A stretch of 64,000 bases of DNA from Gordonia sp. SID5947 (lineage in GTDB: Bacteria; Actinomycetota; Actinomycetes; Mycobacteriales; Mycobacteriaceae), in contig NZ_WWHU01000001.1 in the NCBI RefSeq assembly GCF_009862785.1, positions 558,001 through 622,000 on the forward strand, given 5' to 3'. Positions 12,918 to 26,845 of the stretch are shown here, in pieces (the first letter of the stretch is position 1; every line of letters begins with the position of its first letter). A model generated the notes under the pieces. That model did no database searches, was not told the origin of the DNA, and saw only the letters and a list, made by a program, of their open reading frames with translations. The position numbers and the translations under genes were made by a program.

Positions 12918-14483
12918 ATGACCGGGCAACCTCTGCTCCCGCGGCGTGTCGAGGTGTTGGCGGGTCTCTCGGTCGCCATCGACCTCGGGCTCGGTCAGCC
13001 CGCCGAGCACATGCTGCGTTCGGCCGTCATCGCCTGCCGGTTGGCCGACCGGTTGGGCCTGGACCGCGCCCAGCGTGCCACCACCTATTACGCGACCCTG
13101 CTGATGTGGATCGGTTGTCATGCGGATTCGCACGAGTACGCACGGTGGTTCGGCGACGACATCGCGGTCCGCAGAGACGCGTACCTCGTCGACTGGTCCG
13201 GGATTCCGTACTTGCGGTTTCTGCTGGGCAATGTGGGGCGGGGTGAGCCGCTCGGATACCGGGTGAAGACGATGGCGACGCTGTTCCGTGACGCTCGCGG
13301 CCAACTCGCGACCCTCGTGCACTCCCATTGCATGTCGGCGGCGGCGTTGGCCCGGCACGTCGGCCTCGGCCCTGACGTCGAGCGTGCGATCGCCTTCACC
13401 TACGAGCGTTTCGACGGCGGTGGACTGCCCGCCGGCGCGGCCGGCGACGACATACCAATCGAGATGCGGGTCGCGCAGGTCGCCGACGTGGCAGAGGTCC
13501 ATCACCGGACGTATGGCCTCGACGGGGCGGTCGCGATGGCAGGCAGCCGTCGCGGCGGCCATTTCGATCCGGTGGTCGTCGACGCGTTCGTCGCGGACGC
13601 GGAGAGCATGCTCGCAGTCGCCGGCGATGATCCGTGGAGCGATGCGATCACTCTCGCCCCCGACTGGGAAATGGCACTCGACGATGCCGGACTCGACGCC
13701 CTGGTGACCGCGATCGGCGACTTCGGTGACCTCAAATGCCCTTTTTCGCTGGGACATTCGCGGAATGTGGCCACGCTCGCGGGCGCTGCCGCCGGGCAGA
13801 TGGGGATGTCGTCGGCCGAGGTCGACATTGTCCGTCGGGCCGGGCATCTCCATGACATCGGGCGGATCGGTGTGTCCAGTCAGATCTGGTCGAAACCGGC
13901 AGAGCTGACCGGTGCCGAGTGGGAGCGGGTTCGGATGCATCCGTATCTCACCGATCGAGTTCTCATGCGTATCCCCGGGTTTGGTGCCGTCGCGGCGATC
14001 GCGCGGAGCCATCACGAGCATCTCGACGGCAGTGGCTACCCGCTGGGGGTCGGGGGTGCCGCGCTCGGCCGCAGCCAACGGCTGGTGGCGGCTGCGGTCG
14101 CGTACCAGTCGGCGACTGAGCCGCGGCCGTATCGCGACGCATTCACCGACGAAGATGCCGCGGCCCGGCTTACGAGGCGTGCTGACCGTGGCGCGCTCGA
14201 CGGTGACTGTGTGGAGGCGGTTCTGAGCGCCGCCGGACACAAGGGAGCGCGCGTCCGACGAGAGGACACGCTGACGCCGCGCGAGACCGAGATCCTTGGA
14301 CTCGTGGCGCGCGGCATGTCCAACCGGGAGATCGCGGCACGGCTTGTGTTGAGCGAGAAGACAGTACGCAATCACGTTGAGCACACGTACACCAAGATCG
14401 GCGCTGTCAATCGGGTGGGCGCGAGCCTCTACGCGCTACGGAACGGACTCGCCGCTCCGGACGTCGGTGACGGCTCCCTCTAG
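12918..14483 (+). CDS. HD-GYP-type phosphohydrolase with C-terminal LuxR helix-turn-helix
   Basis: This 521-residue protein has two HD-GYP-like halves. The first (about 20-230) is degenerate, with ERFDGGGLPAG. The second (about 275-420) keeps the metal motif HLHDIGRIGV and the GYP signature HHEHLDGSGYPLG. Residues about 450-510 form a LuxR-type HTH (LTPRETEILGLVARGMSNRE, then SEKTVRNHVEHTYTKIGAVNR). HD-GYP domains hydrolyse cyclic dinucleotides or related phosphodiesters, and the HTH makes this a likely DNA-binding sensor. The 3' end overlaps the convergent DUF2461 fragment by 4 bp. Confidence 0.88.
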   Translation: MTGQPLLPRRVEVLAGLSVAIDLGLGQPAEHMLRSAVIACRLADRLGLDRAQRATTYYATLLMWIGCHADSHEYARWFGDDIAVRRDAYLVDWSGIPYLRFLLGNVGRGEPLGYRVKTMATLFRDARGQLATLVHSHCMSAAALARHVGLGPDVERAIAFTYERFDGGGLPAGAAGDDIPIEMRVAQVADVAEVHHRTYGLDGAVAMAGSRRGGHFDPVVVDAFVADAESMLAVAGDDPWSDAITLAPDWEMALDDAGLDALVTAIGDFGDLKCPFSLGHSRNVATLAGAAAGQMGMSSAEVDIVRRAGHLHDIGRIGVSSQIWSKPAELTGAEWERVRMHPYLTDRVLMRIPGFGAVAAIARSHHEHLDGSGYPLGVGGAALGRSQRLVAAAVAYQSATEPRPYRDAFTDEDAAARLTRRADRGALDGDCVEAVLSAAGHKGARVRREDTLTPRETEILGLVARGMSNREIAARLVLSEKTVRNHVEHTYTKIGAVNRVGASLYALRNGLAAPDVGDGSL

Positions 14484-14912
14484 GGTGACCCGTGCCGCGC
14501 GACCCATTCGACGAGCGGAGTCGCCGCGCGCCAGTCCGTACGGATGCGATCGACGAGGTCGCCTGTGTGGATCACGTCCTCGAAGCCGTAGTCCCGGCCG
14601 ACCGTGAGGGACTTGTGGCGTAACAGGTCGATCCGAGGGTGGTCGGGGTCCCAGCCGCGTGGGGAGGTCTTGAGCTTGTCGCCGCCGACTTCCCACCCGG
14701 CCTTGGCGAGTTTCTTCACCAGCCGTTCGAGCTCCGCACCGTGCCGGTCATGGTCGATCGCCGCCCGCAGTGCGACAAGGCGGTCGGCGGACGCCTCGTA
14801 GAAGCCGGCGCCGACGCGGACGCCCGGTGCGCCGATCTGTACGTAGTACCCGGTCGCCGGAGCCACCCCGACGAAAGCGCCCTGATGGGTCTTGTACGGC
14901 GTCTTGTCCTTG
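14480..14912 (-). pseudogene. DUF2461 family gene, 3' fragment (split by the mobile element)
   Basis: From the core at 14912 down to the stop at 14480 the frame reads KDKTPYKTHQGAFVGVAPAT and continues to VEWVARHGSP, the C-terminal two thirds of a DUF2461 (TIGR02453-like) protein. The N-terminal third lies at 26643-26845 on the same strand. Joining the two at the 3-bp core gives 211 codons including the stop, in frame, with the family's usual length of about 210. The gene is therefore disrupted by insertion. DUF2461 function is not known. Confidence 0.9.
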
Positions 14913-14935
14913 TCAAACACGACACAAGATACAAG
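14895..14935. other. attL junction
   Basis: Left boundary of the element. The shared core is TTG at 14910-14912 (CAA on the gene strand). Left of it is chromosomal DUF2461 sequence (attB half); right of it begins element DNA with tcaaacacgacacaag (attP half). The crossover lies within this trinucleotide, as expected for a serine integrase, which uses a 2-bp core. Reconstructed attP has 7-bp inverted arms tcgtgtt and aacacga with 4 bp between. Confidence 0.85.
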
Positions 14936-14949
14936 AAGGGAATTGAACC

Positions 14950-15213
14950 ATGAACTACGAACACACTTGGAATGAGACCGCTGTCGAACTCGTCGCCGAA
15001 GACGGGTTGTTGTACGCGCACGCGACCGCCGAAGGGTTGCTCGTGCTCCGGAGCGAGCTTGTCCGGACCGACTCGGACCTGTACGCACCGGTAGCCGAAG
15101 AGCTCGCCGGAGGCGCTTACGAGCTATCTGAGAGCGTCGTCGAGGAGTACTCAGACGACTCTCCGGTGATCGGTCGCTCGGTCACCGAGTTCTACACGAA
15201 GGTGGGTGCATGA
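14950..15213 (+). CDS. Hypothetical element protein
   Basis: An acidic 87-residue protein (MNYEHTWNETAVELVAEDG to TEFYTKVGA) with a plausible RBS (gaaggga) eight bases upstream. It is the first gene after attL. Its stop overlaps the next start (ATGA), so it is coupled to the HTH protein at 15210. I recognise no domain. By position it could be an excision or early regulatory factor, but nothing in the sequence shows that. Confidence 0.65.
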   Translation: MNYEHTWNETAVELVAEDGLLYAHATAEGLLVLRSELVRTDSDLYAPVAEELAGGAYELSESVVEEYSDDSPVIGRSVTEFYTKVGA

Positions 15214-16223
15214 CAGAGACCGACTACGTGCTCTCTCCGGAGGAGGATCGACAGCGTAGGGAACAACTCGCGGTTCCGTTGATCCGGTGGCAGCGAGCGT
15301 TCTTCCGGTGCCCGGATAAGGACCTTAGGCCCGTCGCGAAGACGCTCGGTGCGCTGATGACCTACGCCGACAACTACACGCTCGAAGCGTGGCCATCGCT
15401 CGAGACCCTCGTCCGTGAGTCCGGTGTGTCGAGGACTCGGGTCATAGAACACATCAATCTGTGTGTCGACAAAGGTTGGATCGAGCGGATCTCGCGCGGT
15501 GGAAGCGTCCGAGGAACGTCGACCGAGTACCGATTGACGATCCCGACGATCGACAAACCGGGTCCCACTGATGGGACTCACATACCCGACGTTGCCGAAA
15601 CTGGGTCCCGTTCGTGGGAGAACTGGGTCCCATCTGTGGGAGAAGTGGGTCCCGTCAGTGGGACACCAACTACTCAACGGAACTACTCATCGGGGTCGAC
15701 GACCCCTAGGGAGTCGGCCTCGTCGTCTTCGACTCCGTCGTCGTCGGACCCTTCGGTTCCTCCGACTCCTCCGTCTCATCCTCCTCGGGTCACCGGTGAC
15801 GAACCGATGAGTTCGTCATCTCCCTCGGGGTCGATGACTCACAGCACCGGAGTCGAAGCCGACCCCGAGGGAGGCGAAGACGATCGTCAGCCTCCTTTTG
15901 TTCCGGCTGACTCCGGTGTCGGCTCGTCGTCGACTCCTGCGTCGTCGACTCCTGCGTCGTCGACTCCTGCGTCGTCGACTCCTCGTAGTTGGCGTGTCAC
16001 CGATGACGGTGACGTCGTCGAGTACAGCACCGGGGAATACCGACCGTTCGACGGTTGGGAACTAGGCGCAGCGGAGCCGCGCCGTTCAACGGTCGAGCTA
16101 CCGCACGACCTGAGTTCGACACCGAAGAGTCAGAGACCGTCGTCGACTCCCAACAGGTCGTCGACTCCGACGCCTGACGATCCGTGGACAAACCCGTTCA
16201 ACTCCCACCGGACGACGGACTAA
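15210..16223 (+). CDS. Helix-turn-helix protein, probable replication initiator or organiser
   Basis: The 337-residue product has an N-terminal winged helix (about 20-112: LGALMTYADNYTLEAWPSLE, SGVSRTRVIEHINLCVDKGW, then a YRL strand). This matches the HTH_36-type module at the start of many phage and plasmid replication proteins. The rest is Ser/Thr/Pro/Asp-rich and low-complexity, including four SSTPA units around residues 239-259, and shows no ATPase or primase motif. A replication or replisome-loading role is likely but not proven. The 143 bp after the stop, up to the leftward gene at 16367, hold no convincing gene. Confidence 0.6.
   Translation: MTETDYVLSPEEDRQRREQLAVPLIRWQRAFFRCPDKDLRPVAKTLGALMTYADNYTLEAWPSLETLVRESGVSRTRVIEHINLCVDKGWIERISRGGSVRGTSTEYRLTIPTIDKPGPTDGTHIPDVAETGSRSWENWVPSVGEVGPVSGTPTTQRNYSSGSTTPRESASSSSTPSSSDPSVPPTPPSHPPRVTGDEPMSSSSPSGSMTHSTGVEADPEGGEDDRQPPFVPADSGVGSSSTPASSTPASSTPASSTPRSWRVTDDGDVVEYSTGEYRPFDGWELGAAEPRRSTVELPHDLSSTPKSQRPSSTPNRSSTPTPDDPWTNPFNSHRTTD
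15924..15983 (+). repeat. 15-bp tandem repeat, about four copies
   Basis: The unit tcgtcgactcctgcg repeats in tandem and encodes SSTPA units in the low-complexity tail of the HTH protein. The copies are nearly perfect at DNA level, which suggests recent slippage expansion. Variants of the same Ser/Thr/Pro coding pattern continue to about 16180. Confidence 0.8.
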
Positions 16224-16366
16224 CCACCCGAGGGAACCACTCGCGTTCGATACGGCTGATCTCCGAACGAGACCGGCGTGCTGTCCACGCTCACGGTTGG
16301 ACGAGGGCCGAGACCCGACGCCGGCCGAATATGAACCCGACGTCGGGATCGAGGAGGAGTACGTCC

Positions 16367-16558
16367 TCAGCCAGACTTGAGCCCGATCAGCGACTTGACC
16401 GCGTGGAGGATCAAGACGATGCCCGCATACGGAAGCCAGACCGCGGGGACGAGTCCCCATGCGATCAGACCCGTCACGAAGACGATCGGGACCGTCTCGG
16501 GCGGTAGGACTCGGACAAGGGGTTCGAGAAAACCCCCGATAGGCGAAGGATCAGACAT
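16367..16558 (-). CDS. Small membrane protein
   Basis: A 63-residue protein with two hydrophobic segments (about 23-40, VPIVFVTGLIAWGLVPAV, and 43-58, PYAGIVLILHAVKSLIGL). A good RBS (gaggagag) lies just upstream of the ATG on the minus strand. It is transcribed opposite to the structural operon. Small two-helix proteins in this position may be holin-like or exclusion proteins; no family is recognised. Confidence 0.6.
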   Translation of the reverse strand: MSDPSPIGGFLEPLVRVLPPETVPIVFVTGLIAWGLVPAVWLPYAGIVLILHAVKSLIGLKSG

Positions 16559-16954
16559 TTGCTCTCCTCACACGTTGACCTGCTCGGACACACGAGTGAG
16601 AGCCTCTACTAGTCTAGGTAGACGGTGTGTTAGCTTGAGGTAGGTGTATTGACACAAGCTCACGGTGAGACCCTCGAGCAACCCCGGCGGGTGCCGAGGT
16701 TTTCGCTGTTCTCGTGTGGTACTTACGATATCGTTCGGCGCGGTCAAACTGGTGGATGAGACTGGCTTCTTCACCGCGAATCATCAAAGCCCTGCTCAGG
16801 GCTACGTTGTGGATCATCGCGCCGTATTCACCGGCGTGTCCTACACAGGTCCGCTAACAGCTTGTTCTATGCTCCGTCCCCGAGTTCGCTACCGAGCGGG
16901 GCGTCGGGTCAACGAATCCGCGTCATGAAAGCGGAAGACTTCCTTACGACCGAT
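16559..16954. other. Non-coding stretch between leftward genes
   Basis: About 395 bp with AT-richer patches (for example gtgtgttagcttgaggtagg near 16625 and tgtattgacacaag near 16645). Short frames cross it on both strands, but none has a convincing RBS or composition. It probably contains promoters for the small leftward gene at 16558 and termination for the gene at 16955-17257. Confidence 0.4.
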
Positions 16955-17257
16955 CTACCCGCTCTTCGCGATCGCGTCGATGATCCAGATCGGGAGCCAC
17001 AGACCGCAGGTGAGCAACGTCAACACCGCGTGCATCACGTGGGGACACGACTTCCGCGGGACGTAGACCGGTCCGTTGTAGCCGTAGACGACCTGTTGAT
17101 TGACCACCGGAGGGTGGGTGTAGTCGGGTCGGTACTGGGTCACCCACGAACCGGAGACGGGATCGAACATCGACCCGTCGGGGTAGATCCACATGCCGAT
17201 GCCCTGGTCGAAGTAGGGCTCCGGTTGTTGTGGGCCGGCGGGTATCGGCTGGGTCAT
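16955..17257 (-). CDS. Small Pro/Tyr-rich protein with C-terminal membrane helix (superinfection-immunity-like)
   Basis: ATG at 17257 (MTQPIPAGPQQPEP) gives 100 residues; the upstream in-frame extension is Arg-rich and non-homologous. The cytoplasmic part contains a repeated-looking Tyr/Trp/Pro pattern (YFDQGIGMWIYPDGSMFDPV). The C-terminus is one helix, HAVLTLLTCGLWLPIWIIDA. This tail strongly resembles the short membrane domain of the phage superinfection-immunity family (PF14373-like), which is also common in actinobacterial small proteins. In an integrated element it could block related phages; this is inference. Confidence 0.6.
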   Translation of the reverse strand: MTQPIPAGPQQPEPYFDQGIGMWIYPDGSMFDPVSGSWVTQYRPDYTHPPVVNQQVVYGYNGPVYVPRKSCPHVMHAVLTLLTCGLWLPIWIIDAIAKSG

Positions 17258-17551
17258 ACGGGGGACGCTACCGACTGTCACCGACACTCGAGCCGAGAAC
17301 GCGACGCGGGTCGGTGGTTCGCCGCGCTCCCGTTGACGCGCGGGTGGTCGGTGCATCGTCGTGCCGAACGATTGTTCGATCCTCGTTCGTCCTCGACCGT
17401 CTCGTTCGTCGCTCGCGTTCGTGTCGAGTGCAATCGTCGTTGCTGGTCGTCGCAGGGGCACGGGGGGACCCCTCCCGGTGGGGTCTGTCCCGCCTCGTTA
17501 TGCGCCTCCGTCGTCACGCGCAGGTTAGAAGCTCCGACTCCCGTACATCGC

Positions 17552-18283
17552 GTGGGTGTTCCGTCGGTTGACCTGCTCCGAGTCGAGCGCTGGTCGGGAC
17601 GACGGAGTCGGCCCTCTTCGTCGGACTTGGTCCGACTGTGGGCGTTCACCTACGAAGGCCGAAATCAATATGCCTGTAAAGAAATTGACAGGCAGTCGGT
17701 GTCGGAGTTCGCACGTACAGGGGCGATGTCTCGCCCGACGGTCGCCAAATACCGCAAGACGTGGAAGCGCGCCGCGCTGGTGTGGGCGTTCACCACCGAT
17801 GAAGCCAAAGGTGGTAGAGGCAAAACCGGTAAAGAACTTAACCGGTTTACGGTCACTGGTTTCGCACAGACAGGAGCCATGTCCAAGCCGTCGGTCATCA
17901 AGTACCGGAAGGCGTGGAAGCGAGCGATCGACGCGGGGTTCGCGACCGACGTCAAGCCGGGAGACCGGATCGACCTCCCCGACGTCGAGTGGCAGGAGTA
18001 TTTCAACCCGCCGGCTATCGCATTTGTGGTGAGAGCGCTCAGAGCGTCTGTAACCGTCCGGGGGTGTAGGCGTACCGGAGAACGGGTAAAACTCCGTCAG
18101 CGTCGCTCTCAGAGCCAGGAACGAGTGTCTGTGCATCGGCCCGATGTAGGAGACGGATGTTCTCTAGACGCTACCGCTCTACGATCTCGTTCGGATAACG
18201 ATTACTTGACTTTGTACTCCGGGATCGAAGAATCAGACCTTTATACAAGTAGAGGGAGAGAGGGAGTCGAAGGAACGAAGTGA
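17552..18283 (+). CDS. DNA-binding protein with duplicated helix-turn-helix unit
   Basis: Two successive units of about 50 residues can be aligned: WAFTYEGR with FARTGAMSRPTVAKYRKTWK, and WAFTTDEA with FAQTGAMSKPSVIKYRKAWK. Each looks like an HTH (helix, turn GAMS[RK]P, recognition helix). Sequence then reads DVKPGDRIDLPDVEWQEYF. The remaining C-terminal 90 residues have noncoding-like composition and contain one copy of a 25-bp repeat found again in non-coding DNA, so the true end or frame past about 18015 is doubtful. Start (GTG 17552) is a guess; the frame is open far upstream and no strong RBS is visible. Roles such as repressor or origin-binding protein are possible. Confidence 0.5.
   Translation: MGVPSVDLLRVERWSGRRSRPSSSDLVRLWAFTYEGRNQYACKEIDRQSVSEFARTGAMSRPTVAKYRKTWKRAALVWAFTTDEAKGGRGKTGKELNRFTVTGFAQTGAMSKPSVIKYRKAWKRAIDAGFATDVKPGDRIDLPDVEWQEYFNPPAIAFVVRALRASVTVRGCRRTGERVKLRQRRSQSQERVSVHRPDVGDGCSLDATALRSRSDNDYLTLYSGIEESDLYTSRGREGVEGTK
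18237..18261 (+). repeat. 25-bp direct repeat, copy 1
   Basis: Begins acctttatacaagtagagg and ends gagaga; identical to 18634-18658. It contains TATACA, which could be a -10 element, so the repeat may be a duplicated promoter or a protein binding site of the element. Confidence 0.85.
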
Positions 18284-19019
18284 CTGAGACGACCGAACGA
18301 CCGACCCTGACAGCACGACGTAACAACAGCGTCGTCCTCCCTTTCGGGTCGGACTCTCCGAGTCGACGTCGACCCCTAGGGAGACGGAGACATCGACCCT
18401 TCGCCTTAGAGTCTTCGGGTCGTCCGGACCCCTAGGGACGGACGAACCCGGTTAGGTTCTTCCCTTCTCCGAAGCGAAGAATCCTGTCTTCGACTTCCGA
18501 TGCGCGAGCTTCGCTCGCTTTCTCTTCGATCTCCGGTGGTCTAGCTAGGTGGGTACCTCACTTGTGACAGACCCCCGACTATCACGTCTTCGCATCGGCT
18601 CGGTAACAGCCGATAACGAAGCGTGAAATTGGAACCTTTATACAAGTAGAGGGAGAGACCTAGAGCGAGTGACGTCGGTCACGTTCGGTCTCAGAACCTC
18701 GAAAGTTGAACCTTCACTCTAAGTAGGAGCAAGGAGACACTCGGAGGTCTCCTACCCACAGACTTGATCGAGACCGTCCCCCTCCTGGACGACGGTCTCG
18801 GTATCCGAGGACCCGGTCCCTTTGCCCGGAGTCGCTCGGAAGCACCGGTCGAGACGGCCCACATCGCCCGACCGACGTACCCCCTTCCGTCGATCGAGGG
18901 TCCGGCTCCCGGTGCTCAAGACCTCTCTTCTCGACCCACGTAGCGGCAACGCCCGAAGCGTTGACCGCATTTTCTTGTGCCACAAAGAATCACCTGATTC
19001 ACCGAAAGGAGGTGAACCG
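18284..19019. other. Structured non-coding region ahead of the structural operon
   Basis: About 735 bp without a convincing gene. It has recurring gacccctaggg motifs (near 18368 and 18425, also near 15702 in the HTH gene), dyads such as gtgacgtcggtcac near 18670, gcgagcttcgctcgc near 18505 and aggtctcct near 18750, and repeat copy 2. At its end a TTGACC (18961) lies before cacaaagaat, a possible promoter for the operon starting at 19020. Origin, packaging site or regulatory RNA are all possible. Confidence 0.5.
18634..18658 (+). repeat. 25-bp direct repeat, copy 2
   Basis: Perfect copy of 18237-18261, 397 bp further on, inside non-coding DNA. A duplicated TATACA-containing site ahead of the structural operon suggests regulation, replication or packaging rather than coding. 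Confidence 0.85.
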
Positions 19020-19187
19020 ATGGACACCTGCCGACGAGGACATCCGCTAGACGACGTCTACGAAGCTCCCGACGGGGTCCGACGCTGTCAACGTTGCCGC
19101 CGAGAGCGTCAGCGCGAGTACGCGCAGCGAATCCAACGTGACGCGGCGCGGTACCGCGAGATCCGAGAGAGGAAACAACCCGCTTGA
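19020..19187 (+). CDS. Small zinc-finger-like protein, first gene of the structural operon
   Basis: A 55-residue protein with CRRGHPLDD and CQRCRRERQREY: a C-x2-G-H plus C-x2-C pattern resembling a single zinc knuckle, followed by a basic helix. The ATG is preceded by an almost perfect Shine-Dalgarno (aaaggaggtgaa), the strongest RBS in the element. Actinophages often carry such short CxxC-containing HNH-like or connector-associated proteins. Its role is unknown. The stop overlaps the next start. Confidence 0.65.
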   Translation: MDTCRRGHPLDDVYEAPDGVRRCQRCRRERQREYAQRIQRDAARYREIRERKQPA

Positions 19188-19630
19188 TCGACTCCGACGC
19201 CGCGCTCGAGCGGTTCTGCGACCTGTCCGCCATCACCAACCATTTCATCCCGAACTCGCCCGACGCGAAGATCGAGTGGACCTCGCTAGAGCTCTCGTGG
19301 CTCGCCATCGACTGGGAGCAACTCGCGGATATGACTCCGCAGATCCTCCGGACGCATATTCGCCCCTACGGACTCGACGGACCGTCGTACGGACAGATCC
19401 TTTGGGATCGAGCTATCGAGCGCGGTCGAGACCACCGACCGATCGCCGAGCAAGCCGAGACGCTCCGGTACCGCCACCACGTACCGAAGCGTCACGCCGT
19501 CCAGTGGCACGCGAGGCTCACCGCCGGCGAAGACCCCGAAGCCGTCGCAGCGTCGCTCCGGTTGCTCGACGCGTCCGAAGCCGCTGAGACCGCCGTAGCC
19601 GCGGAGAGGCTCGCCGCCGGCGTCGCCTGA
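19184..19630 (+). CDS. Hypothetical element protein
   Basis: A 148-residue protein starting at TTG 19184, overlapping the preceding stop (TTGA). It is helical and acidic with Trp-rich WTSLELSWLAIDWEQLAD and a C-terminal Ala/Glu-rich helix. The position just before a head-tail connector-like gene is where phages encode adaptor proteins, but I recognise no specific family. Confidence 0.6.
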   Translation: MIDSDAALERFCDLSAITNHFIPNSPDAKIEWTSLELSWLAIDWEQLADMTPQILRTHIRPYGLDGPSYGQILWDRAIERGRDHRPIAEQAETLRYRHHVPKRHAVQWHARLTAGEDPEAVAASLRLLDASEAAETAVAAERLAAGVA

Positions 19631-19644
19631 ACAAGGAACAACGA

Positions 19645-19980
19645 ATGCCATCACTTCTCGACCGTCACCGCGACGTCGTCACCGTCTATCCCGAGGAACT
19701 CGTCACCGACGCCGACGGGAACACGCGGACGCGTCCGTCGTCCGTCGGAGTCGTCACCCGGGCGACGATCCAACCCGCCGGAGTCCCCGAAGAGGACACC
19801 GACGTCGGCTTCGACGCCGAGGGCGTCTACCGGATGAAGCTCCCCCGCGGATTCCCGTTGCTGGGTGCTCAATCCGAAATCGTCTGGAAAGACCAGACGT
19901 GGCAGATCGACGGAGATCCCGACTACAACAACGGATCTCGTCGTACCGCTCATCTCACCTACCAGATCCGGAGGAACTGA
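19645..19980 (+). CDS. Phage head-tail connector (stopper)-like protein
   Basis: A 111-residue, beta-rich protein: LLDRHRDVVTVYPEELVTDA at the N-terminus, then ATIQPAG, FPLLGAQSEIVWKDQTWQID, and a C-terminal strand HLTYQIRRN. This layout resembles the small head-completion or stopper proteins of siphophages (gp16/SPP1-like folds), with the typical W-x-G/D-x-TW-x-I-D pattern. Such a protein closes the portal and docks the tail. It sits in the packed rightward operon upstream of the tape-measure gene. Assignment rests on pattern recognition only. Confidence 0.6.
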   Translation: MPSLLDRHRDVVTVYPEELVTDADGNTRTRPSSVGVVTRATIQPAGVPEEDTDVGFDAEGVYRMKLPRGFPLLGAQSEIVWKDQTWQIDGDPDYNNGSRRTAHLTYQIRRN

Positions 19981-19982
19981 AT

Positions 19983-20174
19983 ATGCAAGCCGGTTTGTAT
20001 TCGGCGCGAGAGCTGATCGCGCTCGGTGTCGCCGAACCGTCGACCGTCATCGGTCTGATCGCCCGCGGCGAACTCGAAGTCGCCGGAGCGATCGAGGTCA
20101 ACCGAGGACAGAACGCTCTCGCCGGGTTCCGGCTCGAGGACCTCGAAGAAGCTCTCGACCGACCCGGTCGCTGA
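19983..20174 (+). CDS. Small hypothetical element protein
   Basis: A 63-residue protein (MQAGLYSARELIALGVAEP to EEALDRPGR) starting 3 bp after the connector-like stop. It contains a helix-turn-helix-like run SARELIALGVAEPSTVIGLIARGELEVAG, reminiscent of a MerR/excisionase-type HTH in a short form. It could be an excisionase (directionality factor) or a small structural protein. Neither is shown. Confidence 0.5.
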   Translation: MQAGLYSARELIALGVAEPSTVIGLIARGELEVAGAIEVNRGQNALAGFRLEDLEEALDRPGR

Positions 20175-20200
20175 GCACAACGAAAGGGGAAACCACCAGA

Positions 20201-20389
20201 ATGACCTGTAAACACCACCGAGGCGTCTACGTCGACGCTCGTACCGAGATCGCTCCGATGGAGATCGTCTTGAACGGGAACCGGATAGCGACTGCTGAGC
20301 TTCCGGTCGATCCCGACGACTTCGCCGCGTCGGTCGCCGAAGGGCTCCGCGCGGTCGCCGACGAACTCGACGAGATGGATCTCGACTGA
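20201..20389 (+). CDS. Small hypothetical element protein
   Basis: A 62-residue acidic protein beginning MTCKHHRGVYVDARTEIAPM and ending in an acidic helix VADELDEMDLD. It has a purine-rich RBS (gaaagggga) and its stop overlaps the HNH gene start (TGATG). No domain is recognised. Confidence 0.5.
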   Translation: MTCKHHRGVYVDARTEIAPMEIVLNGNRIATAELPVDPDDFAASVAEGLRAVADELDEMDLD

Positions 20390-21090
20390 TGTCGGTCTGT
20401 CTAGTCGACGTCTGCGAGGACCCGGCGAAGGTTCGCGGGTACTGCCGGCCGCACTACTCGCGACTACGCAGCACCGGGGATCTCGACGTCGTCCAAGAGA
20501 AGAAGCTCGACCACGAAGAGGTCTGCGAAGTCGACGGATGCCGCGGCAAGTACTTCTGCTGCATCGACATCGACGGAGTCGAGACGGATCTCTGCCAGAA
20601 GCATTACCGGCGCGTCCGCCGCACCGGGACGACATCGCCGAGACCGCCGAAGACGTGTTCGGTCGACGGATGCGACCGCAAGCACTCGGGACGCGGGTAC
20701 TGCGCTACCCACCTCCGCCGGTGGAAAGCCCACGGTGACCCGCTGATCGTCGCCGAGACCGCGTCGGAGAAGTTCGGACCCGATCACCCGCGATGGGTCG
20801 GTGATACCGCGTCGTACGACACCGCGCACCAGCGCGTGCGGGCGCAGCGCGGACCGGCGTCGGACTACGCGTGCGACTACTGCGGAGGTCCGGCGTACTC
20901 GTGGGCGTACGACTACGCCGACCCCGACGAGAAGATCGCCGGCCCCGGGAAGGCCGAGGGATCTCCGTATTCGCTCGACGTGAACCACTACATGCCGATG
21001 TGCATCCGCTGCCACAACCGACACGACGTGAACACCCGCCGATTCGCTCCGCTGGTCGTCCTCGTCGACCGAGAGGAACTGAACGTATGA
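20389..21090 (+). CDS. Zinc-finger and HNH endonuclease-like protein
   Basis: The 233-residue protein has three N-terminal zinc-finger-like repeats of the type C-x4-C...C-x2-H-x2-R (CLVDVC with YCRPHYSRL; CEVDGC with LCQKHYRRV; CSVDGC with YCATHLRRW). The C-terminal HNH-type module has CDYCGG, then DVNHYMPMCIRCHNRHD. HNH enzymes in phages are homing endonucleases or assist terminase cleavage at cos ends. It may be a free-standing homing enzyme, or packaging-related in an element without its own terminase. Confidence 0.75.
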   Translation: MSVCLVDVCEDPAKVRGYCRPHYSRLRSTGDLDVVQEKKLDHEEVCEVDGCRGKYFCCIDIDGVETDLCQKHYRRVRRTGTTSPRPPKTCSVDGCDRKHSGRGYCATHLRRWKAHGDPLIVAETASEKFGPDHPRWVGDTASYDTAHQRVRAQRGPASDYACDYCGGPAYSWAYDYADPDEKIAGPGKAEGSPYSLDVNHYMPMCIRCHNRHDVNTRRFAPLVVLVDREELNV

Positions 21091-21395
21091 CCGAACCGAC
21101 CCAGAAGGTATCCGCCGCCGACGCGCTCCGAGGCGCACTCGGGTTGTCGACCGACGCCGATGCCGCCGGATCGTCGGACCCGATCGTCCGAGCCGCTGAG
21201 CTACAGAACGAGTACGGCGCTCAGAGCCGTTCTGAGCCGACGGAATCGGAACCGCTACCGCTGAACGGGAACCGGGTTATCGACGCGGTCTCAGCCGCTC
21301 TCAGGGGCGATACGTCGGCCCCGATGTCGACGTCGACGGCTCAACTCGTCCGGAGCCTCGTCGAGCCGGACCCGACCGTCGGACGCTCCGAATAG
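21087..21395 (+). CDS. Hypothetical element protein
   Basis: A 102-residue Ala/Ser/Glu-rich protein starting with an ATGA overlap. It looks largely disordered with two short helices (VSAADALRGALGL and NRVIDAVSAALRGD). No family is recognised; small tail-assembly or scaffold-like roles cannot be excluded. The 108 bp after it hold a possible hairpin (ccggaggaccctccgg near 21413). Confidence 0.5.
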   Translation: MTEPTQKVSAADALRGALGLSTDADAAGSSDPIVRAAELQNEYGAQSRSEPTESEPLPLNGNRVIDAVSAALRGDTSAPMSTSTAQLVRSLVEPDPTVGRSE

Positions 21396-21503
21396 GTGCA
21401 GCGGAGCCGGGTCCGGAGGACCCTCCGGTAACCCGACCCTGTCCAGTCCCACAACTGAATAGCCACCGCCACCACCACACCCAACGATAAGGGGAATCAC
21501 TAC

Positions 21504-22307
21504 ATGGCACTTGACGCAACCATCACCGCTAACCAGACCTTCGACGCGTGGACCGACGCCGGGGTCAAGCTCTCGAAAGAGCTCGACAAGCTCCGCGCCG
21601 GTCTCGACGCGCTGAAATACGTCGACACCCGTCCGCCGGGACTCGCCGACGTCGAGATCACCGAGAAGAACGCCGAGCACGTCGTCCGCGAACGCGCTGC
21701 TCAACTCGTCCCGTCGATCGACATCGGCAACCAGTCGGCGATGAGTCGTGCGAAGCGCGAGATCCAACAGAACTACGCGGTCCGCGCGTTGCGCGGTCTC
21801 GCCGCGACCGTCGACGACGCCGTCGACCAGTTGACTCCGGCGTTCGACGACGCGGCAGCGCGGTACGTCGACGCGGTCAACCGTCTGCCCGTCGGCGTGA
21901 CGAACGACGACATCGTCCGGATCGGTGATCCCGACGTTCTCGCCGCGCTCAACGACGCGAAGCGAGCCGCCGCCGAACTCGCCGGGTACCAGGCGTTCAT
22001 CGTGTCGTTGTCGGATCTCCCCGGCGTCGGCGGGTTGGCTCCGGTACATTTGCGGATCACCGCACCGTCGGCGGCGAAACAGTTCTGGAAGCTCGCCGAC
22101 GGACGGCTCGCAGCGGGACGCGGGATGTCCGAAGTCGAGAAGAGCTTGAATCCGGTGTGGCTGACCGCGGCACGCGAAGGTATCGGCTTCCGGATGCTGA
22201 CGCCGAAGGCCGCTGGGGATCTCGTCGACGAGCTCGAAGCGAGCCGCGTCCGCGGATACGCCGGCACCGGGACAGAGGCACCGGGGATGCCGATCACTCT
22301 TCGGTGA
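21504..22307 (+). CDS. Hypothetical helical element protein
   Basis: A 267-residue, mostly helical protein (MALDATITANQTFDAWTDAG and following) with an RBS aagggg. It has Ala/Asp-rich helices and no transmembrane segment. It is not obviously a capsid, major tail or protease protein. Its position before the tape-measure gene is where phages place tail-tube and chaperone genes, so it may be a diverged tail or size-control protein. It overlaps the next gene by 4 bp (GTGA). Confidence 0.55.
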   Translation: MALDATITANQTFDAWTDAGVKLSKELDKLRAGLDALKYVDTRPPGLADVEITEKNAEHVVRERAAQLVPSIDIGNQSAMSRAKREIQQNYAVRALRGLAATVDDAVDQLTPAFDDAAARYVDAVNRLPVGVTNDDIVRIGDPDVLAALNDAKRAAAELAGYQAFIVSLSDLPGVGGLAPVHLRITAPSAAKQFWKLADGRLAAGRGMSEVEKSLNPVWLTAAREGIGFRMLTPKAAGDLVDELEASRVRGYAGTGTEAPGMPITLR

Positions 22308-22507
22308 GCACCGGAGATCGGTACCGGGAACATGTGCTGTCTCGGTACGCCGACGCCGATCCCGACGTCCTCGACGAGGCGTGCGACCTACTCGACCGTA
22401 TCGCTCGAGAAGCGCGCGAACACCCCGACGCTCATCCGTTGATCGTCGAGGGTCTCATGACCGACTTCCGGGTCTGCCAGTGGCGACTCGGGATGAAGGT
22501 CGATTAG
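22304..22507 (+). CDS. Small hypothetical protein before the tape-measure gene
   Basis: A GTG-started 67-residue acidic helical protein (MSTGDRYREHVLSRYADADP to CQWRLGMKVD), coupled to the preceding gene. In tailed phages the slot just before the tape measure holds tail-assembly chaperones, often with a programmed frameshift. I see only this short acidic protein and no second chaperone frame, so a chaperone role is only a suggestion. Confidence 0.5.
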   Translation: MSTGDRYREHVLSRYADADPDVLDEACDLLDRIAREAREHPDAHPLIVEGLMTDFRVCQWRLGMKVD

Positions 22508-22579
22508 GAACAACAACCAGACGTGAGCCGGACCTCTTCGGGGGTCCGGCGTCTCGTCGTATCAGATAGGAGCCACCCT

Positions 22580-25075
22580 GTGGCACAAGGTAAAGAGGTC
22601 GGGCGCGTATCCGTACGCGTCATGCCCGACACGAGTCATTTCCGGCGCGACACAGATCGGTCGCTGAAGCGGGCGACCAAGGGACTCAAGGTCAAAGTCC
22701 CGGTGAAACTGAAGACGAAGAATCTTCGAGCCGACATGGAGAAAGCGACCGCCGGTCTCGACGACAAGGTCAAAGTCAAGGTCGGTGTCAGTTCGCAGCA
22801 CACCCGCGCGAGCCTCCGCGCGTTGGCCGCTGAACTCCGGCTTATCGCCCGCCGCGAGAAGGTCGAGATCCCCGTCGAGATCGACCAGAAGACCTCGCGT
22901 GACGCTATCGGCGGTATGTCGCGGATGAGTCAACAGCTCTCGCGGATGCGAGGAGCCGCCGACGGAGCGTCGCGGTCGTTCCGCGGTCTCGGCGGTTCCG
23001 GCGGGTCGATGGGTCTGATCGCGGTCGCCGTCGCGGCGTTGATAGCTCCGCTGACCGGTCTGGTCTCGTCGCTGCTCGCGGGTCTGCCGTCGTTGCTCGG
23101 CGCGGTCGGTGCCGCCGCCGGCGTGACCTACCTCGGTTTCGACGGGATCAAGAAAGCCGCCGAGGCGTTGAATCCTGTTCTCGATCATCTCAAGACGTCG
23201 ATCTCCGGTGTGTTCGAACGCGGTCTGACGAGTCAGTTCGAAGCGTTCTCGAAGACGCTCGGGAAGATGGAACCGTCGCTGTCCAGGATCGCCGAAGGGA
23301 TGCTCGACGTCTCCGGCGCATTCTTCAAGGTCGTCAACTCGCAAGCGGGTATGTCGGCTATGCGCGGGATTCTCGACAACACCGCTACGCTCATGACCCG
23401 TCTCGCTCCCGGCGTCGAGACGCTGACGTCGGGGTTCCTGAAACTCGCCTCCGAAGGGTCCGCGGCGTTCGGCTACCTCGCCGACGCTTTCGGCACGTTC
23501 GCCAACGGGTTTGGTGCGGTCGTCGACCGGCTGGCCTCGTCCGGGGCTCTCGATTCCGCTATGAAGGGACTCTCCGAGGTCGTCACCGGTCTCGGTAACG
23601 CGTTCAACACGTTGTTCGAGTCCGGCGTGAAGGTCATGGGTTCGATGGGTGGCCCGATTCGCTCGACCATCGAAGGGCTCGCGAACTCGCTAGCCGCCGC
23701 GATGCCCGGTCTCGCCGCGTTCTCGAACGCGATCCTCAAGACAGCCGGCTCGTTCCTCAACGCGCTCGCGCCCGCGATCGAGAAGATGCAACCGGCGCTC
23801 GTGAAGTTCTACGACTCGATGGGCAACCTCTGGAGCGGTCTCGCTACGAAGATGGCTCCGGTCCTCACCGAGGTAGCCGGGATTCTCTCCGACTCTCTGC
23901 TGTCTGTGATGAACCAACTTGCTCCGGTGCTTCCGCAGATCGTCGAAGGGTTCGGTCAGATGGCTACCGCGTTCGCGGGAGCTCTCGCCGACAACGCTCC
24001 GAAGATCGCCGACTCGATGGCGAAGCTCGGTATCGCTCTCGGAGATGCCGCGGTGAAGCTCGCTCCGCTGATGCCGCAACTCGTGCAGATGGCGGTCAAT
24101 CTGATCCCGAAGCTCGTAGCCGTCATGCCACAGTTGGTCGACTCGTTCGTCAACTTCTCGACTAACGCGCTACCGCAGATCACGACAGGGATCATCACCC
24201 TCGCACCGTATGTCTTGACGATCCTCAACGGGTTCACTCAGTGGGTCGGCGTCGTCGCACAGGTCACCGGCGTACTCGGTGGTCTCCAGCCGGTCATGTC
24301 CGGAGTGGTCTCGTTGTTCAAGATCATCCTCGGACCGCTAGGTTCTGCGATCAACATCTTCAAGATCACGGCTACTCAGGTCGGGATCCTCAAGGGAGCG
24401 TTCTCGAATGCGGGGAACGTCATCTCGGGTGTGATCGACACCTTGTCGAACGCGTTCGACAAGTTCAAAGAAGCCGTGTCCGTGAGTCTCGATGCGGTGA
24501 AGCAGATCGTCACCGACACAAAGGACAAGATCGTCAGTACGTTCTCGTCCATCGACCTGACGGCTATCGGCGCTCAGATCATGCAAGGGTTGCTCAACGG
24601 CCTGAAGTCTGTTCCGGTACTCGGGACGGTTATCTCTATCGCCGGCGGCATCAAGAACGCGTTCAAGAGCGTTCTCGGTATCCACTCCCCGTCGAAGGTC
24701 TTCCACGGCTACGGCATGAACATCGTCCAAGGTCTCACCAACGGACTATCGAACACGACGCCGGTCGAGAACGCGACGAAGAAGCTCGCCGATTCGGTGA
24801 AAAAGACGTGGGACGACACGATCTCCCAGGATCTCATCGCCTCGGGGAAGTCGATCGCACAGGCACCGTTCCAGACCCTCGCATCCGATCTCGGGTTCTC
24901 GTCGTCGGGTGTCGTCGGTTCGCTTATCTCCCAGTTCATCAACGGATCGGTCACCCCGAACCCGAAGGAGCAGGAGGGGTCCGGAGCGACGTACATCGTC
25001 AAGGACATCGACGAGGCGAAGCGCAAAGAGGATCTCGAGAAGAAGAAGAAGTCACTCCAGTTCAAGAAGAGGTGA
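22580..25075 (+). CDS. Phage tape-measure protein
   Basis: Start chosen at GTG 22580 (RBS aggag 8 bases upstream), giving 831 residues. N-terminal KEVGRVSVRVMPDTSHFRRD is typical of actinophage tape measures. A hydrophobic segment (about residues 135-180, MGLIAVAVAALIAPLTGLV) follows, then long amphipathic helical repeats and a C-terminal block with GIHSPSKVFHGYGMNIVQGL, a near-universal tape-measure signature. Tape measures set the length of siphophage tails at about 0.15 nm per residue, so this one would specify roughly 125 nm. It is the largest gene of the element, last in its operon and intact, which argues it is under selection. Confidence 0.9.
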   Translation: MAQGKEVGRVSVRVMPDTSHFRRDTDRSLKRATKGLKVKVPVKLKTKNLRADMEKATAGLDDKVKVKVGVSSQHTRASLRALAAELRLIARREKVEIPVEIDQKTSRDAIGGMSRMSQQLSRMRGAADGASRSFRGLGGSGGSMGLIAVAVAALIAPLTGLVSSLLAGLPSLLGAVGAAAGVTYLGFDGIKKAAEALNPVLDHLKTSISGVFERGLTSQFEAFSKTLGKMEPSLSRIAEGMLDVSGAFFKVVNSQAGMSAMRGILDNTATLMTRLAPGVETLTSGFLKLASEGSAAFGYLADAFGTFANGFGAVVDRLASSGALDSAMKGLSEVVTGLGNAFNTLFESGVKVMGSMGGPIRSTIEGLANSLAAAMPGLAAFSNAILKTAGSFLNALAPAIEKMQPALVKFYDSMGNLWSGLATKMAPVLTEVAGILSDSLLSVMNQLAPVLPQIVEGFGQMATAFAGALADNAPKIADSMAKLGIALGDAAVKLAPLMPQLVQMAVNLIPKLVAVMPQLVDSFVNFSTNALPQITTGIITLAPYVLTILNGFTQWVGVVAQVTGVLGGLQPVMSGVVSLFKIILGPLGSAINIFKITATQVGILKGAFSNAGNVISGVIDTLSNAFDKFKEAVSVSLDAVKQIVTDTKDKIVSTFSSIDLTAIGAQIMQGLLNGLKSVPVLGTVISIAGGIKNAFKSVLGIHSPSKVFHGYGMNIVQGLTNGLSNTTPVENATKKLADSVKKTWDDTISQDLIASGKSIAQAPFQTLASDLGFSSSGVVGSLISQFINGSVTPNPKEQEGSGATYIVKDIDEAKRKEDLEKKKKSLQFKKR

Positions 25076-25097
25076 CTTTCCGACGGCGTCGTCCGGC

Positions 25098-26612
25098 TCA
25101 ATCGACGAGTCGGGCGGCGTCGCCGGTCCCGTCCCAGTCCAGCGGGACGCGGACGTGTGTCCTCATCGCGTTACTGCGCTCGTACTTGAACACCGACAAG
25201 ACGATGCCGGAGGATAAGAGTAACCTCCGGCGTTGTTCGGTGTCGCGGTCTCGCCATTCGTCGGCGTACGTCCGTCCGGTCGGGATCGTCTCGTACCGCG
25301 CAGCGCGTGCGGGCATCTGTTCTAGCTCCGCGACGCGGTCGTCTACAGCTCGTAGTTGGCTCTCGTAGCGCTCCCGTGCGGCGTTCGACCTCGCGGTCGC
25401 ATACATCCTCGTGAGGTCGTCTAGAGCGCGCTGAGCGTCTGCTAGGTCTCGTTCGTGTGACTCCGCTGGGATGAACCGACGCTCGGTGACCTCGCGGTCG
25501 CCGTGCTGCTCTAGGAACTCGGTTTCGAGTAGCTGCTCTAGTTCCGCCGCTCGTACTTGTCCTCCGTGGTTCTCGGGACAGACGTAGTAGCGGGTGACCG
25601 CGTCGGTTCCGTCGGCTCTCGTCCACCGCTGCGCTTTGTGGTGCATGTTCGCGTCGCATTCGTCGCAGCGGACGACGCCGAGCAACGGGGATTGAGTCCG
25701 TCGGGTCGGGTCGAGCGGCTTCGACCGTTCGGCAAGATGTGCTTGTAGTCGTTCGAACTCGTCGGCGGTGAGAAGCTCCGGACCTTTGCGGACAGGTCGT
25801 CCTGCGTCGTCGCGGACGATCTCGTCCCGGTGCATCGCGAAACCGAGAAGCGATGGAGACGTGAGTATGTCGTGCAGCGTCCCGCGTCGCCACGCCGCAC
25901 CGGTCGGCGGATTCTTCGGGTTGCCGTTGCGGACTCGGACGACGTCGGCGGGTGTCGGGATACCTCGGTCGGTCAGGTCCTCGGCTATCGACCCGACGGA
26001 GTCGCCGGAGACGACGCGGTCGAATACCTCGCGGACGATCCGAGCGGTATCGGCGTCGTGGACAAGGGTCTTGTGTCCGTCGTCCAGTCTGATCGCTTTG
26101 TAACCGTAGGGTGGTCTGCCTCCGGTCCAGTAGCCGTCGTGGCGCAGCTTCCGGCGGGAGTCGATGACGCGCTCTCTGATCGCTTCGAGTTCGCCTTCGG
26201 CGAGTCCGGCGATGACGTTCGCGACCAATCGACCGACCCACGTCGACAGGTCGATATTGTCTGCGACGCACACGAGAGTCTTGTCGTGTTCGCGGCAGAA
26301 GCCGAAGAGCTTGTTGAGCCGGATCGAGTTACGTCCGAGTCTGTCGAGCTTCCACGCGGCGATGACGTCGTACTCGTCGATCTTCTCGGGGTCGGTGAGC
26401 CACGGTCCGAACGCCGGCGAGTCGAACGCGTCGACCGAGCCGGAGACCTCCTCGTCGACGGCCCAACCGACGACTGTGTGGTCGTGGGCGTCTGCCCAGT
26501 TCTGGACTATCTCGCGTTGTCGCTCAATCGAAGTGGACTCTTCGCGGACTCGGGAGATCCGGAGTCGACCGAGGACTCGTAAGCCGGTTTGGTTGCTGTC
26601 GGAGATGGACAT
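25098..26612 (-). CDS. Large serine recombinase (integrase) of the element
   Basis: This 504-residue protein has an N-terminal resolvase domain with the nucleophile region LGRLRISR (Ser20) and the motif AAWKLDRLGRN near residue 85. A recombinase domain (about 165-290, GYWTGGRPPYGY) and a zinc ribbon (VRCDECDANMHH, then YYVCPENH, about 320-355) follow, with a coiled-coil region near 385-440. This is the layout of phiC31/Bxb1-type integrases. The start codon lies 31 bp from the attR core, and the gene points inward. No Shine-Dalgarno is visible before the ATG and a -10-like TACAAT ends 6 bp upstream, so the mRNA may be leaderless. Confidence 0.93.
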   Translation of the reverse strand: MSISDSNQTGLRVLGRLRISRVREESTSIERQREIVQNWADAHDHTVVGWAVDEEVSGSVDAFDSPAFGPWLTDPEKIDEYDVIAAWKLDRLGRNSIRLNKLFGFCREHDKTLVCVADNIDLSTWVGRLVANVIAGLAEGELEAIRERVIDSRRKLRHDGYWTGGRPPYGYKAIRLDDGHKTLVHDADTARIVREVFDRVVSGDSVGSIAEDLTDRGIPTPADVVRVRNGNPKNPPTGAAWRRGTLHDILTSPSLLGFAMHRDEIVRDDAGRPVRKGPELLTADEFERLQAHLAERSKPLDPTRRTQSPLLGVVRCDECDANMHHKAQRWTRADGTDAVTRYYVCPENHGGQVRAAELEQLLETEFLEQHGDREVTERRFIPAESHERDLADAQRALDDLTRMYATARSNAARERYESQLRAVDDRVAELEQMPARAARYETIPTGRTYADEWRDRDTEQRRRLLLSSGIVLSVFKYERSNAMRTHVRVPLDWDGTGDAARLVD

Positions 26613-26650
26613 ATGTAGATTGTAAGTCGCGTCCGGTTCGTGTTGGCGAA
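26613..26650 (-). promoter_or_regulatory. Integrase promoter region, -35 altered by integration
   Basis: On the minus strand TACAAT ends 6 bp before the integrase ATG. In the integrated state the -35 position reads TCGCCA (chromosomal attB half). In the reconstructed circular attP it would read TTGACA, formed across the core, 19 bp from TACAAT. The promoter should thus be stronger in the circle than in the chromosome. Confidence 0.5.
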
Positions 26651-26655
26651 CCGCA
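26635..26655. other. attR junction
   Basis: Right boundary of the element. The core TTG at 26643-26645 is shared with 14910-14912. To its left is element DNA (ggttcgtg), to its right chromosomal DUF2461 sequence (gcgaaccgcacg). Joining the right flank to the left flank at this core restores codons for DVRFAKDKTPYKT. Confidence 0.85.
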
Positions 26656-26845
26656 CGTCTCGGTAGGGGCGGAAGATCTTTGCCGCACCGAACTCGTCGG
26701 CGAGCGCGTCGGTGAGCGCACGCATCGGCTCCGCGACAGCCGTACGGTAGACCTCCTTGTTCGCCTCCCAGAAGGACTTGGTGTTGTCCATCTCGAGGTC
26801 GTCGTAGAAGTCGAGCGCGGCTTCGGGAAAGCCCTCGAAGGTCAT
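26643..26845 (-). pseudogene. DUF2461 family gene, 5' fragment
   Basis: Reads MTFEGFPEAALDFYDDLEMD through KIFRPYRDVRFA, the N-terminal third of DUF2461, and then enters the element, where the frame runs on for 45 foreign residues to a stop at 26507. The remaining two thirds lie at 14480-14912. It keeps its own start and likely promoter, so the fragment is probably still transcribed towards the integrase. Confidence 0.9.

Follow-up and report, generated by a model that had tools for sequence, protein, structure and literature searches.

Can an integrated element with no genes for a phage head bring its own ruler for a phage tail? This question is raised by an 11,733-bp element in the chromosome of Gordonia sp. 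SID5947. The element lies at positions 14910-26642 of the window, that is, the whole stretch analyzed here (64,000 nucleotides, positions 558,001 to 622,000 of the 5.01-Mb contig NZ_WWHU01000001.1). The original prediction, made from the sequence of the stretch, described a candidate phage satellite of 11.7 kb that supplies a tape measure protein, and the length was confirmed by the attachment (att) site cores. The element is probably an integrated Gordonia phage satellite with its own tape measure, whose likely helper, judging from the best full-phage matches of its proteins, would be a siphophage with a cluster-A-like tail module.

The element is inserted into a gene of the TIGR02453/DUF2461 family, which was split by the action of a large serine integrase. 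When the junctions are compared with intact genes and with each other, the core comes out as three base pairs, which read CAA on the strand of the host gene. The C-terminal half of the host gene scores 81.7 bits against TIGR02453, below the whole-gene cut-off of 105.4 bits because only half of the gene is present. The gene occurs in 18 of the 21 genomes of the genus, counting the split copy itself. It is intact in other Gordonia, and the uninterrupted site was read in four of the ten loci that were put through the motif scan. Both flanks consist of ordinary bacterial genes over the 10-32 kb of the window inspected. Like known satellites, the element is integrated, with an integrase and defined att sites, and it has a replication gene of its own (p02). 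Sixteen called genes occupy 84% of its length, and a search of the element against Rfam gave no match.

Ten of the genes, all on the plus strand, form an operon between positions 19020 and 25075 with spacings of -4, +14, +2, +26, -1, -4, +108, -1 and +72 bp. As had been predicted, this tightly packed operon with overlapping starts ends in the tape measure gene, which begins with a GTG codon at 22580 preceded by AGGAG and encodes 831 residues. The protein described earlier as connector-like is the head closure protein Hc1, and the HNH protein does carry three zinc-finger-like motifs, each of the form C..C..C..H, in addition to its matches to HNH families. All 16 proteins were scanned against PHROGs (E≤0.1), ten of them also against Pfam and nine against NCBIfam. 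This profile search, which the original prediction had proposed, returned only the tape measure and Hc1 as convincing structural proteins. No protein matched a PHROG family of portal, terminase, protease, capsid, major tail protein, holin or lysin at that threshold. The single match of p13 to the "tail protein" family phrog_1204 is weak (E 0.017, 14 bits). The predicted absence of all these genes was thus upheld, with the reservation that for the terminase it holds only for the large subunit (TerL), because the small protein p14 weakly resembles small terminase subunits (TerS). In these scans the element is without a complete virion gene set, as a satellite would be, and it is without the portal, capsid, TerL and lysis genes of an intact prophage.

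A second copy of the element, 12.2 kb long, is found in Gordonia tangerina GW1C4-4 (G090), in the same host gene and with the same CAA core. Its genes run in the order p01, an AAA_25 protein, p05, an extra HNH_3 protein, p07, Hc1, p09, p10, a different HNH gene in the slot of p11, p12, p13, p14, the tape measure and the integrase. The two elements therefore have p01, p05, p07-p10, p12-p15 and the integrase in common and in the same order. Reading frames are kept in all nine genes compared, with identities from 42% (tape measure) to 79% (integrase). The slot between p10 and p12, which holds unlike HNH genes in the sister elements (20389-21090 and L009:13038-13574), looks as if it had been swapped.

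This conservation bears on the alternative offered with the original prediction, namely that the element is a shrunken prophage. On this view it descends from a temperate, cluster-A-like phage in which deletions removed most of the structural and lysis genes, and the tape measure and Hc1 are functionless leftovers. Hc1 precedes the tape measure as it does in phages, and the best full-phage matches of the integrase (53%, SWU2), Hc1 (about 49%), the HNH protein (36%, Abrogate) and the tape measure all lie among mycobacteriophages, in keeping with such an origin. However, the same reduced gene set occurs in the same order and at the same site in a second, diverged species, frames are open throughout, and neither p07 (no match among 50,697 phage records) nor p13 resembles any phage protein in those records. 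The Gordonia prophage of G300, which has the closest phage-type tape measure found, is without p12 and p13 in the two 20-kb stretches inspected. Because the reduced form is conserved in order and site, a shrunken prophage appears unlikely, and we place it behind a satellite. The features of the element are collected in Table 1.

Table 1. Genes, attachment cores and host-gene halves of the Gordonia sp. SID5947 element, in window coordinates
Feature	Position	Strand	Evidence
C-terminal half of split TIGR02453/DUF2461 host gene	14480..14912	-	NCBIfam TIGR02453 6.1e-23, positions 75-214 of 218
attL core, CAA on gene strand	14910..14912		junction compared with intact genes and attR
p01, 87 aa, phage gp70-like	14950..15213	+	PF17429 7.4e-6 (26 bits, cut-off 27); phrog_4421 4.3e-9; 62% in G. 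tangerina
p02, replication initiator with HTH_36	15210..16223	+	PF13730 3.5e-8; phrog_270 (replication initiation) 6.5e-13
p03, 63 aa, no known family	16367..16558	-	no PHROG match
p04, 100 aa	16955..17257	-	phrog_35826 3.1e-11, phrog_2697 1.5e-8, both function-unknown families
p05, 243 aa, internally repeated, helix-turn-helix-like by eye	17552..18283	+	no PHROG, Pfam or NCBIfam match; conserved in G. tangerina
p06, 55 aa, zinc-ribbon-like by eye	19020..19187	+	parts of phrog_826 and phrog_1492 (HNH families), about 6e-6; no G. tangerina match
p07, 148 aa	19184..19630	+	C-terminal domain (residues 81-125) 51% in L100, a p13 element that has no tape measure
p08, head closure Hc1 (head-to-tail stopper)	19645..19980	+	phrog_320 2.3e-31
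p09, 63 aa	19983..20174	+	no family match; 56% in G. tangerina
p10, 62 aa	20201..20389	+	no PHROG match; 57% over 42 aa in G. tangerina
p11, HNH endonuclease, three zinc-finger-like motifs	20389..21090	+	phrog_5351 7.7e-20, phrog_1271 3.7e-16
p12, 102 aa, conserved partner of p13	21087..21395	+	60% in G. tangerina
p13, 267 aa, hallmark of satellite family	21504..22307	+	no phage or plasmid match; 9 full-length matches in 401 family genomes
p14, 66 aa, possible miniature TerS-like protein (weak)	22307..22507	+	hhalign against TerS set
p15, tail length tape measure protein, 831 aa	22580..25075	+	phrog_305 1.7e-140; GTG start
p16, large serine integrase	25098..26612	-	PF00239 8.7e-22, PF07508 6e-13; phrog_95 1.8e-123
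attR core	26643..26645		junction comparison
N-terminal half of split host gene	26643..26845	-	71% to N-terminal half flanking G. tangerina element

Upstream of the operon, p05 contains a stretch of about 45 residues, helix-turn-helix-like by eye, that occurs twice in tandem. An exact 25-bp direct repeat, ACCTTTATACAAGTAGAGGGAGAGA, is located at 18237-18261 and 18634-18658, 397 bp apart, and is possibly a duplicated promoter or regulator site.

Of the 25 PHROG families listed for the tape measure (34 in all), 18 are named tape measure. A tblastn query spanning 22556-25072, and thus including eight extra upstream codons, matched 2,063 of the 50,697 phage records, every one at less than 60% identity, and the matches are to actinophage families. 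The tape measures of the two Gordonia elements are 78% identical over the N-terminal 50 positions and 77% over the C-terminal 80, with 34% identity between. The conserved ends and free middle would fit a ruler that touches fixed partners at both ends. Related tape measures in three complete phages have 734, 807 and 1005 residues, a range within which the 831 residues fall, and the supposition that the element's tape measure is shorter than that of its helper was dropped on account of these lengths. Other Gordonia tape measure matches, present in nine of 59 genomes in addition to the window and G. tangerina, lie in longer open frames (973 to 1800 residues), among which only that of G300 was confirmed as belonging to a prophage. 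Shortening relative to a candidate relative was seen only in two other elements, described below (651 versus 807 and 1355 versus 1469 residues). Tails measure about 0.15 nm per tape measure residue, and a tail built on 831 residues would be near 125 nm long. Control of tail length by the element is plausible.

Satellite tape measures have been known since March 2026 from the phage-inducible chromosomal island-like elements (PLEs) of Vibrio cholerae. According to that report, the tape measure gene tmp and the gene tac occur in all PLEs, PLE tape measures enter PLE11 virions, and the tails are chimeric and differ in length between PLE11 and the helper phage ICP1 (PMC12987554). Deletion of tmp lowers transduction by 96% in PLE1, 99% in PLE4 and about 99.9% in PLE11. 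The same paper states that the well-characterized double-stranded DNA satellites all hijack phage tails, and that a tape measure had been reported in none besides the PLEs. Tape measures are predicted in PLE-like elements and in some capsid-forming phage-inducible chromosomal islands (cf-PICIs) (PMC12987554). The Gordonia element resembles PLE11, PLE1 and PLE4 in having its own tape measure while the tail tube and other parts would come from the helper. It differs in several respects. ICP1 is lytic and contractile-tailed, and the PLEs encode a tail assembly chaperone and in some cases a baseplate hub (PMC12987554), whereas the Gordonia element, from another phylum, has a tape measure of a siphophage family, Hc1 and a serine integrase, and no chaperone was recognized among its proteins.

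Satellites are also known to attack tail assembly, as when PLE11 Rta blocks ICP1 tails (PMC12987554), and the tape measure and Hc1 of the Gordonia element might be weapons that derail the assembly of helper tails without entering satellite particles. We regard this as rather improbable, and a little more so than a shrunken prophage, since the precedent described for the PLE tape measures is one of incorporation (PMC12987554) and since the Gordonia pair of elements has kept the tape measure similar at either end, as expected of a protein that fits partners at both ends of the tail.

Small elements with a tape measure also appear to exist in a related host. GenBank holds 12 Mycolicibacterium aichiense "phage" records of only 10.9-11.1 kb (OR387110-OR387121), and the annotations of two of them, Alyssa1 (OR387110, 11,078 bp) and SarahF (OR387119), were read. 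Both are annotated with a terminase gene, an adaptor, Hc1, a capsid, a serine integrase and a tape measure of 651 residues. The terminase is small-subunit-like by its size and, in Alyssa1, also by tblastn to the TerS of L010, L011 and L014, loci that are described below. In Alyssa1 the annotation of the serine integrase is divided in two. The two annotations include neither a large terminase or portal nor a major tail protein or lysis gene, nine other proteins of the pair matched no structural family in PHROGs, and a major tail protein from a full phage, used as a query, matched 1,188 phage records of which none is labelled Mycolicibacterium (12 are so labelled for Hc1). The last 190 bp or so of the Alyssa1 tape measure gene have, among the matches listed, about 84-88% DNA identity to full mycobacteriophages, including Herbertwm, a phage from the same town that was isolated on M. 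aichiense. Between the tape measure proteins of Alyssa1 and Herbertwm (651 and 807 residues), identity is 62% in the N-terminal 50 positions and 78% in the C-terminal 80, with 47% for the part between them. As the records were deposited as phage genomes, it is suggested that their DNA is packaged, and the twelve have the look of satellites that carry a capsid gene and bring a tape measure of their own. A literature search found no paper on these elements; the species is only named in a prophage table of PMC10654092.

The Gordonia element is similar to the M. aichiense elements in its size of about 11 kb, serine integrase, Hc1 (1,023 phage records matched, the best being Alyssa1 at 51%), a helix-turn-helix or replication-like protein and a homologous tape measure. 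The large terminase, portal, major tail and lysis genes are likewise unannotated in them, and a SarahF protein (L132:10433-10819) matches the same two PHROG families as p04. The M. aichiense elements differ in having their own adaptor, a gene for a capsid of some 274 residues and, in SarahF, a scaffold, they have no match to p13, and they belong to a different lineage. The window gave nothing better than E 0.06 against the Alyssa1 capsid, adaptor and scaffold, and does not contain the full M. aichiense gene set.

The protein p13 had no match among the 50,697 phage records or 72,556 plasmids. In the protein database each search gave four matches, the query's own protein included, with 8,000 candidates scored. 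One of the scans of genome contigs was without matches, and the last one matched G. tangerina only. A single-sequence search found p13 in seven of 301 family genomes, and a seven-row profile found nine full-length places among 401 genomes. The profile search had 33 rows, 24 of which were short or weak and were left out; among these, G245 (L101) gave no tblastn match to the window p13. The other loci carry a p12-like gene next to p13, recognized by eye as a small open reading frame containing PLNG, and most of them appear by eye to be small elements. The window-type integrase or a relative is present in eight of the nine loci, the window counted and L013 being the exception; in L099 it is some 6 kb away from p13 and is perhaps part of a different element. 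TerS was found in four of the seven loci that have no tape measure, namely L010, L011 and L100 (by PHROGs) and L014 (by tblastn). By similarity, which is all that this negative covers, none of the seven loci matched (tblastn, E≤1e-3) the tape measures of the window, Alyssa1, Herbertwm or the second element, or a panel of capsids. Nine further proteins from these loci, besides the three TerS, had no structural match in PHROGs, and a 45-residue piece in L012 resembles a phage head-tail adaptor. L010, L011, L014, L100 and others are candidates for a new satellite family of the Mycobacteriales. The order has a p13-like match outside this family as well (G498, E 5.5e-31), and G617, G568 and G046 were matched as well.

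It is highly improbable that the element makes its own head with p13 as an unrecognized capsid, as in the M. aichiense elements. In size and position p13 does match the slot of the 274-residue Alyssa1 capsid, whose gene immediately precedes the tape measure gene. However, when the profile of the p13 family was compared with five capsids, it gave a probability of 0.09%, against 86% for a control split of those capsids (0.03% for a scaffold, control 49%), and p13 adjoins TerS in L100, an element without a tape measure. The neighboring p14 has no match in PHROGs or Pfam. A two-sequence p14 profile was aligned by hhalign to five TerS proteins with a probability of 69.4%, while 50 column shuffles reached at most 1.45%. 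In L014 and L100 the TerS gene lies directly downstream of p13, in the slot that p14 occupies here. We regard p14 as possibly a miniature TerS, the similarity being weak but specific and short of establishing it.

The original prediction proposed to look for a prophage in the same genome. No complete prophage was recognized in the host genome, and a separate element of about 10.3 kb with capsid and tape measure genes is present. The portal families PF05133 and PF04860 gave no match in the host genome; PF05133 found two portals in G300, and PF04860 had matches in four of the 14 genomes used as controls. A query with the large terminase of the G300 prophage found itself in G300, 43% identity in G323 and 25% in G090, and had no match in the host. 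With phrog_2, a single incomplete match of 27 bits turned up, in a frame of 890 residues; this search is uninformative, because it missed the known G300 large terminase (phrog_9) and matched 11 of the 14 controls. The helper would therefore come from outside or be of a kind that these searches miss. In G. tangerina, a portal-like match (19.6 bits) stands beside a large-terminase-like match (25% identity) at the start of a contig (G090:C7:806-2963), possibly a prophage piece and thus a candidate remnant of a helper.

The one capsid found in the host genome with PF05065 is that of the separate, unrelated element (G000:C1:3149022-3159314, L097/L098), which is situated between 26-bp repeats at tRNA-Ser. 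Its genes encode a tyrosine integrase, an excisionase, a replication protein, a 390-residue capsid and a 1355-residue tape measure (phrog_9228, 1.2e-221), with no portal or terminase among the proteins scanned. The tape measure is 50% identical over 91% of its length to that of Gordonia phage SoilAssassin (1469 residues). The capsid has matches (E≤1e-3) in 25 of 59 genomes of the genus, itself counted, and the tape measure had no tblastn match in nine other capsid loci, two of which were ended by contig ends.

Several observations weigh against a satellite with its own tape measure. By tblastn, the G. tangerina element lacks counterparts of p02, p06 and p11. The ratio of nonsynonymous to synonymous differences per site (pN/pS) is 0.29-0.80 in the genes compared, where pS, at 0.39-0.53, is near saturation in this GC-rich DNA, so that the ratio is no more than indicative of purifying selection. 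A tape measure is present in only two of the nine p13 elements, and p13 was not found in viral contigs. In the search for a helper, the last 124 residues of the tape measure had no phage match at E≤1, and the DNA matches of the element, among the 20 of 124 records listed, are of about 80 bp within Hc1.

The satellite reading is nevertheless well supported, because a diverged sister copy occupies the identical site in another species, a wider family and a set of analogues of about 11 kb exist, and no full prophage was recognized in the host. On these grounds the original prediction is supported for the satellite, and in part for its interpretation as a whole, the idea of tail remodelling being plausible. 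A helper with a cluster-A-like tail module is likely, since the best full-phage matches of the integrase, Hc1, the HNH protein and the tape measure are to mycobacteriophages that we take to be of cluster A. We infer a dependence on this helper that could work as follows. Upon induction or infection by the helper, the serine integrase would excise the element and its own initiator would replicate the DNA. The element would supply the tape measure, the Hc1 stopper and the HNH protein, while the helper would provide the capsid, portal, large terminase, tail tube, tail tip and lysis functions. The helper's large terminase would package the element DNA into helper heads, p14 perhaps acting as a mini small-terminase that marks this DNA for it. 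The satellite tape measure would be built into tubes of the helper's tail protein, giving chimeric tails whose length and assembly are set by the satellite, and Hc1 would close the heads filled with satellite DNA and join them to these tails.

Such an element would not be of a wholly new kind, because satellite tape measures in chimeric tails have already been shown for the Vibrio PLEs. The cf-PICIs are likewise integrated satellites, some with a tape measure, that depend on helper tails (PMC12987554), but they encode a capsid, a portal and both terminase subunits (PMC10690885), whereas in the window element none of these was recognized beyond the weakly TerS-like p14. Candidate Mycobacterium PICIs are also small integrated elements, some with a serine integrase, terminase and replication genes. 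They are defined by an integrase together with a capsid gene, a definition that would leave out the window element, and the text makes no mention of a tape measure (PMC10654092). The Streptomyces satellites MulchRoom and MiniFlayer are actinobacterial and helper-dependent as well, but have both terminase subunits, a portal, a capsid and a scaffold, and no tape measure is mentioned in the text on them (PMC10690885). No paper on an actinobacterial satellite with a tape measure was among those listed by the literature search, from which preprints and most subscription papers were out of reach. What appears to be new here is the occurrence in another phylum, the siphophage-type tape measure, the lack of an own capsid, the pairing with a head closure protein and the family marked by p13.

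It is conceivable, though we hold it only tentatively and think it somewhat doubtful, that tape measure piracy is recurrent in satellites of the Mycobacteriales, having arisen three times or more, in lineages that differ in their integrases, capsids or markers: the p13-marked one of the window, the capsid-carrying M. aichiense elements and the 10.3-kb tyrosine-integrase element of the host genome. The window lineage, having no head genes, would then go furthest, ruling the tail through its tape measure and gating its joining to the head through Hc1, and heads packed with satellite DNA would be given tails measured by the satellite. If the satellite reading is correct, a capsid-less element in a second phylum would make tail remodelling a general strategy of satellites. 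It would also be a tractable one, as tail lengths can be counted under the microscope, and as deposited isolates exist for the M. aichiense elements, along with a related full phage that comes from the same town. Searches for satellites that are keyed on capsid genes would miss elements of this type.

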